From Phormidesmis priestleyi BC1401 (lineage in GTDB: Bacteria; Cyanobacteriota; Cyanobacteriia; Leptolyngbyales; Leptolyngbyaceae): a stretch of DNA of 47,418 nucleotides. Both the position numbers and the translations under genes were made by a program. Under the pieces are notes generated by a model. That model was given only the letters and a program-made list of their open reading frames with translations. It searched no databases and had not been told where the DNA came from. The stretch lies in the NCBI RefSeq assembly GCF_001650195.1, contig NZ_LXYR01000040.1:1-47418 (forward strand), given 5' to 3'. Position 1 is the stretch's first letter. Every line of letters begins with the position of its first letter. Below, piece after piece: positions 44,767 through 47,418 of this stretch.

Positions 44767-45099
44767 CTAAAACTGTTGGTAAAGCGCATCAACGGCTTGC
44801 TTTAAATCTGGCAGGTAGTTTTCCACCACATTCCAGATGATATCGAGGTCAATGTCTAAATATTGATGGGCTAGGACATTGCGAAAATCGCCAATCGTTC
44901 TCCAATCAATTTCAGGACGTATCGCTTTCCAATCATCTGGTAGTCGTTGGGTTGATTCACATAGGGTTTGCAGATTTCGGATCACTGCATCCTGAGTTTT
45001 CAGATCTGCAAAAAATGCAGCTTTTCCCGCCACAGTGTAAGCTTCAATTCGATTAATACAGTCCCGAACGTGTACCAGATAAACACGGCTATCTTTCAT
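44767..45099 (-). CDS. hepT: HepT-like HEPN toxin (DUF86)
   Basis: 110 residues. HEPN RNase-type toxin of the MntA/HepT module. The active motif RX4HXY is RNVLAHQY (about 81-88), so catalytic Arg and His are intact, as is the Tyr that MntA AMPylates to neutralise it. All-helical sequence, as expected. The ATG overlaps the MntA stop codon (ATGA, 45096-45099), so translation is coupled. Confidence 0.9.
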   Translation of the reverse strand: MKDSRVYLVHVRDCINRIEAYTVAGKAAFFADLKTQDAVIRNLQTLCESTQRLPDDWKAIRPEIDWRTIGDFRNVLAHQYLDIDLDIIWNVVENYLPDLKQAVDALYQQF

Positions 45100-45425
45100 A
45101 GCGATCGAGCTTCACTTAAGATGCGATCGCGGATGAAATAGTGCAGCGATTTTTCGGTTACGACATCAACTTTATGTCCTAGCAATGCCTCTAATTCTTG
45201 GATTAAACCGACAGGAAACCAGGGGCTTAACGATTCACCTAAATCTACTAGAAAATCAATATCACTGTTGGGTTGAGCTTCTCCCCGAACAACGGAGCCA
45301 AATACCCGCACGTTTCTAGCGCCGTGTTGAACCGCAATTTCTAGAATGCGATCGCGCTGCTCATTGAGAATTGCTTCAATCTTCAGTGTTTCTTGGGTTT
45401 TCATAGACAACCAAGCTGTCGCCAT
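45096..45425 (-). CDS. mntA: MntA-like nucleotidyltransferase antitoxin
   Basis: 109 residues (102 if the ATG at 45404 is used). Minimal nucleotidyltransferase: FGSVVRGEAQPNSDIDFLVD contains the GSX(10)DXD active site, complete, with the third Asp expected in KVDVVTEKSL. MntA proteins AMPylate the paired HepT and so act as antitoxin. First gene of the module, overlapping hepT by four bases. Two ATG starts are possible; neither has a clear ribosome-binding site. Confidence 0.9.
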   Translation of the reverse strand: MATAWLSMKTQETLKIEAILNEQRDRILEIAVQHGARNVRVFGSVVRGEAQPNSDIDFLVDLGESLSPWFPVGLIQELEALLGHKVDVVTEKSLHYFIRDRILSEARSL

Positions 45426-45525
45426 TCTTGCACTTTCAATCTATCTCTTTTTTCTTCAACGATCGCTCTTGCATGATCGGATGAAGAACAATCGCGTCAT
45501 TAAGAGAGCAGGGCATACAGTTTTT

Positions 45526-45834
45526 CTACGATTTGCTTATGAGTTTTGTGGATAACCCGCCTAGCTGACGCTGGATCATGGAGTGGCGCAGTGTGAGCAA
45601 ATGATTTAGCCTCAGCACGGAGGTTTTTTTGAGTCCAGTGACGGCAAAGTCAGGGTGAGTCGCATCTAAGATTAGGTCGGTAGCCAGGGGGTGAGTCGGA
45701 AGGCGGCTGGTAATGAGTGCGAGAACGACGTGACGATGTTCTCCGATCGGGTTTGTTAACGCGTAAGCAGGTCGAATTTTACTATCAGATAGATCGTCGT
45801 AGGGAAATTCAACCAGAACGATGCTACGTTTCAT
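45526..45834 (-). CDS. MazF/PemK-like toxin
   Basis: 102 residues. Starts MKRSIVLVEFPYDDLSDSKIRPAYAL, the beta-hairpin and loop pattern of PemK/MazF endoribonucleases (RPA.. with conserved Arg), followed by VVLALITSRLP and a C-terminal helix region (VLRLNHLLTLRHSMIQRQLGGL). Expected to cut mRNA in single-stranded regions. It overlaps the upstream small gene by 11 bases, a typical toxin-antitoxin layout. Confidence 0.85.
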   Translation of the reverse strand: MKRSIVLVEFPYDDLSDSKIRPAYALTNPIGEHRHVVLALITSRLPTHPLATDLILDATHPDFAVTGLKKTSVLRLNHLLTLRHSMIQRQLGGLSTKLISKS

Positions 45835-46060
45835 GGTCGATCAGTTTACCGTCTTCTAGTGTGTAAATGTCTTCGTCAGGATCACTGAGAAGATCGATCG
45901 CCGAAGTTTTGAGAGCTGCTAAAGACCATTCTTGAGCGTCGTCTTGATCGGGGAAAAGCAAGATGCCTCGAAAGCGAATGGGTTTTAGGGCAGCCAGGGG
46001 TTGGTCTAACTCGACAATGCCCTGTTCGTCAATGCTGCCTGTGATTTCGATGGCTTTCAT
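45824..46060 (-). CDS. Antitoxin partner of the MazF-like toxin
   Basis: 78 residues. N-terminal beta-rich stretch (MKAIEITGSIDEQGIVELDQP) like small cyanobacterial antitoxins, then an acidic C-terminus (SAIDLLSDPDEDIYTLEDGKLI) that would be unfolded and wrap the toxin. The role is inferred mainly from its position directly upstream of, and overlapping, the MazF-like gene. A DNA-binding fold is not obvious. Confidence 0.8.
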   Translation of the reverse strand: MKAIEITGSIDEQGIVELDQPLAALKPIRFRGILLFPDQDDAQEWSLAALKTSAIDLLSDPDEDIYTLEDGKLIDHET

Positions 46061-46197
46061 GGGCTTTACGATCGCTCAACTGCTTCTAAAGTATCTTATT
46101 TTCACGATTCCCCTACACGATCGGCTGAAGGGCGATCGCGTGTGCAAAAGTATCGGTTTGTATAGGCAGGAATTTCTAGGCTGATGCTGCTGGAACC

Positions 46198-46425
46198 CTA
46201 ATGAGAAAGAGTAGCAAGGTGATCTGCAATCCAAAGTTTGATAATGGCTTGGCGTGTGACTCCAAGGCGCTTGGCTTCCTGGTCTAGTGCTTCAAGCATC
46301 CAGATGGGAAAGTCAACATCAACACGCGTCTGCTCGTAGCCTGGATGATTTGCTTGAGAGAGGTCTAAAAGATTGGTAATGTCTTCGCCATTGTCAAATC
46401 TAGTGTCAAATTCATCTGCTTTCAT
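46198..46425 (-). CDS. BrnA-like ribbon-helix-helix antitoxin
   Basis: 75 residues. The C-terminal half RVDVDFPIWMLEALDQEAKRLGVTRQAIIK has the strand-helix-helix pattern of CopG/BrnA DNA-binding proteins, with an acidic N-terminal segment that would contact the toxin. It overlaps the BrnT gene by 14 bases. Such antitoxins usually repress their own operon. Confidence 0.85.
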   Translation of the reverse strand: MKADEFDTRFDNGEDITNLLDLSQANHPGYEQTRVDVDFPIWMLEALDQEAKRLGVTRQAIIKLWIADHLATLSH

Positions 46426-46675
46426 AAATTTCTACCTCTTCTGTGCGAGAGCGTCGAACCGAAATAATGCGTACTCTGCTGTTTCGGTAGGTGACAACGG
46501 CTGACCAGCACTTTTGGTTGATTGTACCAATCACTAGAAATCTTGGCTCGTCTTCTGTTCTAGCTGGAATCTCGATTCTGTCGGAATCAGCCCACAGTTG
46601 TTGTGCTTTGACGAAGCTAATGCCGTGTTTCTCTTGATTAGACTGACTCTTAGCTTCATCGAACTCGAATTTCAT
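46412..46675 (-). CDS. BrnT-like toxin
   Basis: 87 residues from the ATG at 46673-46675 (MKFEFDEAKSQSNQEKHGISF). BrnT family ribonuclease toxins share this start, EKHGISFVKAQQLWAD, then RFLVIGTINQKCWSAVVTYR and RIISVRRSRTEEVEIYE. All expected conserved residues (Lys, His, Arg, Glu) appear present. The open frame continues 20 codons upstream, but the family start is clear. Gene order toxin-then-antitoxin is the usual one for BrnTA. Confidence 0.88.
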   Translation of the reverse strand: MKFEFDEAKSQSNQEKHGISFVKAQQLWADSDRIEIPARTEDEPRFLVIGTINQKCWSAVVTYRNSRVRIISVRRSRTEEVEIYESR

Positions 46676-46838
46676 AAGGTATTTGAACCATGCCTCTGAT
46701 TCCTGATTGAAAGAAGCGATCGTTCTTCTCCACAATAGGGGCGATCGCAGTCAGCAAAATCTAAAACAGCGATCGCTCCTGCCAACAATGACCACGATCG
46801 TCCCCGACACAATTAGCTCAAATGCGATAAAGCTCAAT

Positions 46839-46882
46839 GAGCGGGTAAGTCTTCGGCTTTCGCCTACCAAGCTACCCGGCTC
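46839..46882 (-). other. Hairpin with GAAA tetraloop downstream of the variable-region gene
   Basis: GAGCGGGTA (46839-46847) pairs with TACCC-GGCTC (46873-46882, one bulged base), and inside it, read on the minus strand, GGC-GAAA-GCC (46855-46864) forms a three-pair stem with a GNRA loop. It is 30 bases past the stop codon of the FGE-fold fragment. Hairpins or cruciforms of this kind follow the target site in known DGRs, although usually closer to the variable region than here. Confidence 0.5.
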
Positions 46883-46911
46883 TGTTTTATTTTCGGAGGT
46901 CGTTGTCTTCC

Positions 46912-47364
46912 TCACCGGAACAGGTCTGGACTCTTCTGGATACGCCCAAACAATTCCCATTGCTTAGTTCTGATAGTAGAAGAGTGCTGGAAAACCGAAC
47001 ACACCACCCGAAAACCGACATTAGAGCCGCGGTAGGCAGGAGAGCCAGAGTTGCGGAAGGCAGCGCGACAGTACGACGGATTGCTGAACCACGAACCGCC
47101 CCGAAGTACACGATTTTCACTATTTTTATTAGTTGTCCAGGAACTGCCATCTGATGGAGCAGCCTCATAATTTCCATGCCAGTGGTCAGCGCACCACTCC
47201 CAGACATTGCCGTGCATATCGTAGAGACCGAAAGGATTTGCTGGAAAACTGCCGACATCAGTGGTCTGCTTTCGATAGATTCCTTTCGGTGCCTCGCCAT
47301 GAGTATGGTTACCGTTGTAATTTACCGGAATGGAGGGCTGGGGAACCCTTAAAGCCCCTGTCTT
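46912..47364 (-). pseudogene. FGE/C-type-lectin-fold protein, 3' part; candidate DGR variable protein
   Basis: The frame is open from 47364 to the stop at 46912. The product matches the C-terminal half of the formylglycine-generating-enzyme (sulfatase-modifying factor) domain: [60 protein letters not shown]. After GFRVV a 30-residue tail follows. The 5' half is absent: the frame meets TAA at 47365-47367 inside a hairpin-rich sequence. FGE-fold proteins with this C-terminus are frequent targets of DGRs. Whether the gene is truncated, interrupted by an IS or frameshifted depends on sequence beyond the window. Confidence 0.75.
47002..47112 (-). repeat. Candidate DGR variable region (VR)
   Basis: The stretch from RVLRGGSW to GFRVV. 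Between the fixed W, P, CR, R, P, R and G residues, 13 of 14 variable codons end in C or T (TTC, AGC, AAT, TAC, TTC, AAC, TCT, GGC, TCT, TAC, GGC, TCT, AAT; exception TCG). This is what adenine mutagenesis of AAC/AAT template codons yields, since the third base is kept. The template repeat is not in the window. Confidence 0.6.
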
Positions 47365-47418
47365 TTAAGCATGGGGATGTAAAAGGGGTTCCCGCGTGGC
47401 GGTCACGCCACAGAGTCT
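47337..47418. mobile_element. Possible IS200/IS605-type element end
   Basis: On the plus strand AAGCCCCTG-TCTTTTAAGC-ATGGGG forms a small stem (CCCC/GGGG), nested between GGGAACCC and GGGGTTCCC (47341-47392), followed by GTGGCG/CGCCAC (about 47395-47412). The nested-stem pattern resembles the ends of IS200/IS605 or IS1341 (TnpB) elements. It interrupts the FGE-fold gene. The window ends before any transposase or TnpB gene could be seen. Confidence 0.4.

Follow-up and report, generated by a model that had tools for sequence, protein, structure and literature searches.

Does the variable tail of an FGE-fold gene in Phormidesmis priestleyi BC1401 belong to a diversity-generating retroelement (DGR), and, if it does, what has become of the template repeat (TR) and the reverse transcriptase? 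The gene lies at the end of the stretch of DNA analysed here (the window), an entire contig of 47,418 bases (C40) from a 5.55 Mb draft genome of 213 contigs that is 99.99% complete and whose closest named protein relatives are cyanobacterial. A first-pass annotation, made from the letters alone, had placed a DGR variable region (VR) at 46995-47120 and offered two readings, a remote target diversified in trans or a fossil. The accessible part of PMC7517822 describes DGRs in cyanobacteria that have caspase-CLec targets, as well as remote targets and a single remnant with no reverse transcriptase nearby.

The variable stretch is present on the minus strand as claimed. It comprises 37 residues in frame with the FGE domain (PF03781, 103.8 bits, profile positions 151-254 of 255) and forms the 3' end of that domain. 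The VR is real but its core lies at 46994-47103 (minus strand) rather than within the bounds first proposed; the FGE-fold gene is likewise real but incomplete in the window, contig C40 ending at 47418 in mobile-element sequence. The earlier count of 13 NNC or NNT codons among 14 variable ones corresponds to P = 0.0015, given the third-base pyrimidine rate of the window's long open reading frames (0.52) and uncorrected for the choice of stretch. A comparison with a real template is the stronger test, and the closest locus found, on contig C141 of a relative (G035; 78% over almost the full query), provides one. It carries a TIR-FGE gene with a VR, and a TR 305 bases further on; 19 of the 20 mismatches between the two fall at template adenines. 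Its FGE domain is preceded by a TIR domain, not a caspase, and it is therefore a related locus but not an orthologue in the strict sense.

Measured against the G035 TR, the window differs mainly at template adenines (13/22 adenine sites versus 10/88 other sites, Fisher P = 8e-6), the template being that of a relative, with none found in the window's own genome. The template adenines all occupy codon positions 1 and 2, so that non-adenine sites at those positions are the fairer control; there the difference persists (13/22 versus 4/52, P = 6e-6). The body of the gene lacks the bias (8/49 versus 28/128). All 12 codons that face adenine-bearing template codons end in C or T, and the one exception to this ending, a TCG codon, faces GTG. 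Ordinary codon or composition bias is ruled out by the gene-body and position 1-2 controls, and the minus-strand stretch 46994-47103 is confirmed, on sequence grounds, as a genuine DGR VR.

The first-pass annotation had proposed a genome search for an adenine-biased template copy and a DGR reverse transcriptase; we found neither, the outcome that the annotation itself had named as refuting an active target. Queried with the VR, the 5.55 Mb genome returned the VR, five matches at chance level (15-23 bases) and no TR; a longer query of the same kind did find the G035 TR, at 81%. Four enzymes in the genome carry an RVT_1 domain: a group II intron maturase, two retron-type enzymes and one UG13b-type enzyme. 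A profile built from ten DGR enzymes (A2) reached at best 28 bits, on the UG13b-type enzyme, and together the RVT_1 classification and the profile yielded no DGR reverse transcriptase in this genome. The possibility that a DGR enzyme is hidden among the four was rejected on their best PADLOC/NCBIfam matches (group II intron, retron-type and UG13b-type). Three of these loci (L008, L009, L010) hold the two retron-type reverse transcriptases, one of which best matches RT-Toprim models, and the UG13b-type enzyme. A remote DGR variable protein is one whose VR is homologous to a DGR of the same genome, with 50% or more nucleotide identity as the threshold for remote targets in the accessible part of PMC7517822; here no TR or DGR was found to which the VR could be homologous. 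A true VR signature but no TR and no DGR enzyme in the genome supports the fossil alternative of the first-pass annotation.

Alignment to the G035 locus points to how the TR was lost. In BLAST the VR gene of G035 matches 47326-46977 (78%), the TR of that locus together with its 3' flank matches 47103-46740 (79%), and the two alignments overlap only around the repeat. On the gene (5') side 143 of 179 positions are identical to the G035 VR gene. Within the first 160 bases past the junction, 131/158 positions are identical to the G035 TR flank versus 69/152 to the G035 VR flank, the baseline from shuffled sequence being about 50 of 160. With a VR-like gene side and a 3' side like the TR flank, the window is a VR/TR chimera that lacks the intervening piece. 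The junction lies on the minus strand within 46986-47024, between the last adenine-site change (47024) and the first TR-type base (46986).

Directly behind the VR, at 46837-46988 (minus strand), lies a structured RNA that the first-pass annotation missed and that replaces the VR's normal 3' flank. It resembles RT-14, here a 3' element of DGR template RNA. The window RNA matches RF02921 over its full length in sequence and fold (41.7 bits, E = 3.5e-4), below the gathering score of 48.1, and an Rfam scan of the window at the gathering threshold gave no match. In G035 the RT-14 RNA lies directly 3' of the TR (RF02921, 52 bits, above the gathering score). Against our own model (R1, trained on 14 aligned RNAs, some of them fused copies) the window RNA scores 127.4 bits, being itself among the training sequences, and it keeps 31 of the 34 pairs of the R1 structure, in agreement with the RT-14 consensus structure. 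Across the alignment of the 14 RNAs 96% of cells pair, 20/34 pairs show change on both sides, and there are 73 double-change cells versus 24 in shuffles. Folded as a single sequence the window RNA is mildly stable (z = -1.9); its best fold departs from the consensus and its centroid retains the conserved helices. RT-14 and R1 find a single match in the window's genome, the one attached to the VR. An RNA that elsewhere follows the TR now stands directly 3' of the VR; VR and TR have thus been joined and the TR lost, and the alignments show the gene and the RNA element in a fused state.

The link of RT-14 (RF02921) to the 3' end of DGR templates is a result of the present analysis, drawn from sequence comparison. 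To our knowledge this Rfam family has had no role assigned so far, and a literature search on RT-14, with most subscription journals outside its coverage, found nothing. Since the family is tied to DGR template RNA, templates and their relics can be found by an RNA search rather than a repeat search. In BPP-1 the TR is directly followed by the structured Sp RNA, to which RT-Avd is recruited and from which cDNA is primed (accessible part of PMC12875486). The RT-14-like element sits where Sp sits, and by this analogy of position it may have the role of the BPP-1 spacer. At the G035 locus itself (L132/L169) template and RNA are accompanied by no enzyme motif within the 20 kb read, and the single strong DGR enzyme match of that genome lies on contig C59, with a template of its own.

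The gene is not only fused at its 3' end but also split, which the first-pass annotation missed as well. The window holds the 3' half of a caspase-FGE gene at 46912-47319 (minus strand; PF03781 positions 151-254), whose frame enters the RNA and stops at 46912. The sole matching first half in the genome, on contig C71 (L014, 241-1839), consists of Peptidase_C14 and PF03781 positions 4-134 and runs into a TnpB fragment (PF07282, 28.3, over its cut-off of 26.3; PF01385, 28.2, under its cut-off of 30.5). The last 99 bases of the window, 47320-47418 (minus strand), are the end of a multicopy mobile element inside which the contig stops; 94-99 bp of it recur at 100% identity at seven other contig ends, which places mobile-element sequence at both breaks. 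We infer that the window's end piece belongs to the TnpB-bearing element at the C71 break. For an element of IS200/IS605 type (TnpB), the TnpB fragment and the multicopy end piece were seen, all as fragments, and no full-length copy was read. As the two halves are complementary, C71 and C40 probably join, with one element between them.

We then asked how widely the RNA and its fusion occur. Among 388 genomes RF02921 matched at E ≤ 0.001 in 12 and above its cut-off in two, the window's genome being in neither group; R1 matched 103 of the 388, the window's included, and the wider counts rest on R1. An Rfam scan of 19 related loci at the gathering threshold likewise returned none, and several of these were later matched by R1. 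The 96 best R1 loci (matches down to E = 4e-20, minus one tie, G195:C40, weaker ones being left out) fall into five groups. At 74 a TR-like stretch, defined as seven or more AAC/AAT codons outside a gene, precedes the RNA; 14, the window among them, have a mutated VR inside a gene; two have an FGE frame that ends in an N-rich, template-like stretch (L209, L227); two are mutated and non-coding (L204, L226); and four were left unparsed (L161, L270, L272, L280). The 14 fused loci comprise 13 sorted by script and one by hand (L166, a 280-residue frame with an FGE body); a first sorting pass had flagged 18 loci as genes, of which L215 and L267 were dropped because their frames are not FGE bodies. 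Six of the 14 come from assemblies of 1 to 10 contigs (G046, G208, G281, G005, G203, G338). A TR/VR pair was demonstrated by alignment at nine of the 15 RNA loci so tested.

The DGR-enzyme profile matched 67 of the 388 genomes at E ≤ 1e-60, and 64 of these 67 also have the RNA (P = 8e-42, training genomes counted in and relatedness ignored). At the same threshold a DGR reverse transcriptase occurs in 1/11 genomes with only fused, mutated copies versus 44/58 with a TR-type copy (Fisher P = 5e-5, with the genomes that hold both kinds, G208, G238 and G155, counted as TR-type); the species are related, so that such Fisher tests overstate independence. Weaker profile matches, up to 105 bits, occur in eight of the 10 enzyme-less fused-only genomes; we take them to be other kinds of reverse transcriptase, as classified in the window's genome alone. 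Two gene orders occur among complete relatives: L157, for example, has VR-avd-RT-TR-RNA, and L165 and L167 have VR-TR-RNA-avd-RT, with bAvd profile-confirmed in L165 only. In the first order a crossover between VR and TR removes template and enzyme together, in keeping with the 10/11 fused-only genomes without enzyme. One further pair of loci shows a different change: in L168 versus L167 (G167 and G179) the RNAs are identical and the 5' flank is common to both, part of the adenines of the G167 template repeat have been replaced and G179 has an intact one, the template having seemingly been overwritten.

With these data in hand we consider it most likely that the locus is a dead DGR, the relic of a VR-TR fusion that was also cut by a mobile element. 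The ancestor would have been a caspase-FGE target gene ending in its VR and followed on the same strand by the TR with its 3' RNA element, avd and the reverse transcriptase lying nearby or elsewhere. The TR would have rewritten the VR by adenine-specific mutagenic retrohoming, a step to which the adenine-site bias attests. A crossover of the two direct repeats would then have removed the whole piece that began with the VR's own 3' flank and ended with the TR, and fused the gene to the RNA element; given the order VR-avd-RT-TR-RNA, this single event would also have deleted avd and the reverse transcriptase. Finally a mobile element, probably of TnpB type, would have split the coding region. Such recombination between direct repeats, the simplest cause, is probably what produced the fusion. 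The genome yielded no DGR enzyme and we therefore take the VR to be frozen. The VR-RNA fusion would thus be a recurrent type of scar in cyanobacteria, most likely a DGR relic, and a VR directly followed by the template RNA element can be read as the mark of a DGR's death.

Cyanobacterial DGRs with CLec targets resemble the window in combining an orthocaspase-like domain with a CLec target whose VR lies at the 3' end, and all3226 resembles it as a remnant without a nearby reverse transcriptase that retains 'remnant TR-VR homology'; the fusion of the RNA 3' of the TR to the target gene is a feature of the window that the accessible part of the same source (PMC7517822) does not describe. Our own search for a VR-RNA fusion, by title or the start of the abstract and with most subscription journals uncovered, found none, and within the literature searched the scar appears to be newly described.

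If the fused copies are relics, their RNAs might be expected to decay. Scored by pairs kept, no decay was found in enzyme-less genomes: the fraction of pairs kept is 0.938 in the 10 fused RNAs of such genomes and 0.946 in 36 TR-like copies (P = 0.29; the author chose the 36 from the 74, and for 35/36 the sequence read contains an enzyme motif), and it is 0.931 in the six fused copies outside the training set (P = 0.11). This speaks against plain decay: the enzyme may have been lost only recently, or the RNA may be retained for some other function, for instance in the 3' end of the mRNA.

A more radical reading of the fused genes is that they template themselves. The fused transcript bears the DGR RNA handle, and a reverse transcriptase might copy the VR from it, mutate the remaining adenines and write the copy back; we regard this as a tentative proposal. 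The same fused gene occurs in two close relatives (L201 in G208, L202 in G238), with the RNA directly behind the VR and a DGR enzyme at another locus in both. The two strains differ at 16 positions in 67 bases of the VR, at 13 in the 4,900 bases upstream and at one in the RNA. All 16 VR differences fall at codon position 1 or 2, and 10 have A in one strain, so the fused VR seems to be still diversifying. With three mismatches allowed, a pattern search of each genome returned the VR and no other match, and a search of the genus with the fused gene as query gave nothing in G208 beyond that gene and the DGR locus already known. A diversified VR without a matching template implies either that it is its own template or that the template was lost in both strains, sits on a plasmid absent from the assembly or survives in some members of the population. 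The G208 assembly could indeed miss plasmids, and there is precedent for the population explanation: in Thiohalocapsa PB-PSB1 transposons degrade DGR loci and some VRs vary without a matching template in the reference genome, which is explained by structural variants that keep the reverse transcriptase and TR (accessible part of PMC10907252, which describes no VR-RNA fusion).

In a second case, G092 (L273), the frame of a DGR enzyme is intact and is followed by an FGE gene with its VR right next to the RNA; this fused RNA is the only RNA match in the genome, and an avd-like frame was seen beside it by eye. Its two VRs were tried as template and copy and rejected (22 mismatches, only five at template A), which counts against self-templating there. 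L209 and L227, in which the FGE frame (only 95 residues in L227) closes with the template-like stretch immediately ahead of the RNA, would suit a gene acting as its own template. We think it conceivable, if doubtful, that a VR fused to the RNA handle is a one-part mutator gene that carries its own template, with the enzyme in cis (G092) or in trans (G208 and G238); a literature search for self-templating found none. If it were so, such genes would exhaust their adenines and afterwards, with the enzyme gone, freeze in the state seen in the window. That the window is the relic of such a gene after loss of the enzyme is, in our view, possible and no better than that, since neither the window's genome nor, with it counted, 10/11 fused-only genomes yielded an enzyme. 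The G208/G238 gene pair offers a direct test case for a target acting as its own template.

For the fusion itself, as opposed to what may have followed it, a crossover is not the only conceivable route. A cDNA begun in the RNA element could have carried that sequence into the 3' flank of the VR during retrohoming, with the TR lost separately; the cDNA of the model phage is primed within the spacer behind the TR (accessible part of PMC12875486). However, the homology to the TR side of G035 spans the whole RNA plus about 97 bases, to 46740, more than a cDNA primed close to the TR would be expected to cover, and we consider this route unlikely. It is very unlikely that the assembler created the fusion by merging short reads of VR and TR. 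The assembly is a 213-contig draft with a contig end 315 bases from the VR, but an artefact of this kind should have left another contig with either the 5' side of the TR or a second copy of the RNA, and none was found; moreover, the same fusion is present in the single-contig assemblies G046 and G208, which rule it out as a mere draft artefact. A live remote target diversified in trans, for which the true VR signature and the 76 remote targets reported in cyanobacteria (accessible part of PMC7517822) might speak, has hardly any chance left, since its gene is split and a genome that is 99.99% complete yielded neither TR nor DGR enzyme: it is refuted for this assembly, and only a missing plasmid or a missing contig could rescue it.

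Two further features of the genome lie close to the subject of the relic. Another FGE gene, which as judged by eye begins in a similar caspase-like way, lies on contig C5 (L012, 337-2286, plus strand); its tail is VR-like, with many codons that do not end in C or T, and no RNA element was found at the gene. Behind the relic the window carries a row of toxin-antitoxin genes at 44767-46672 (minus strand), made up of BrnT with a CopG-type antitoxin (score slightly below its cut-off), a toxin of PemK/MazF type preceded by a small unassigned frame, and HepT paired with a nucleotidyltransferase.
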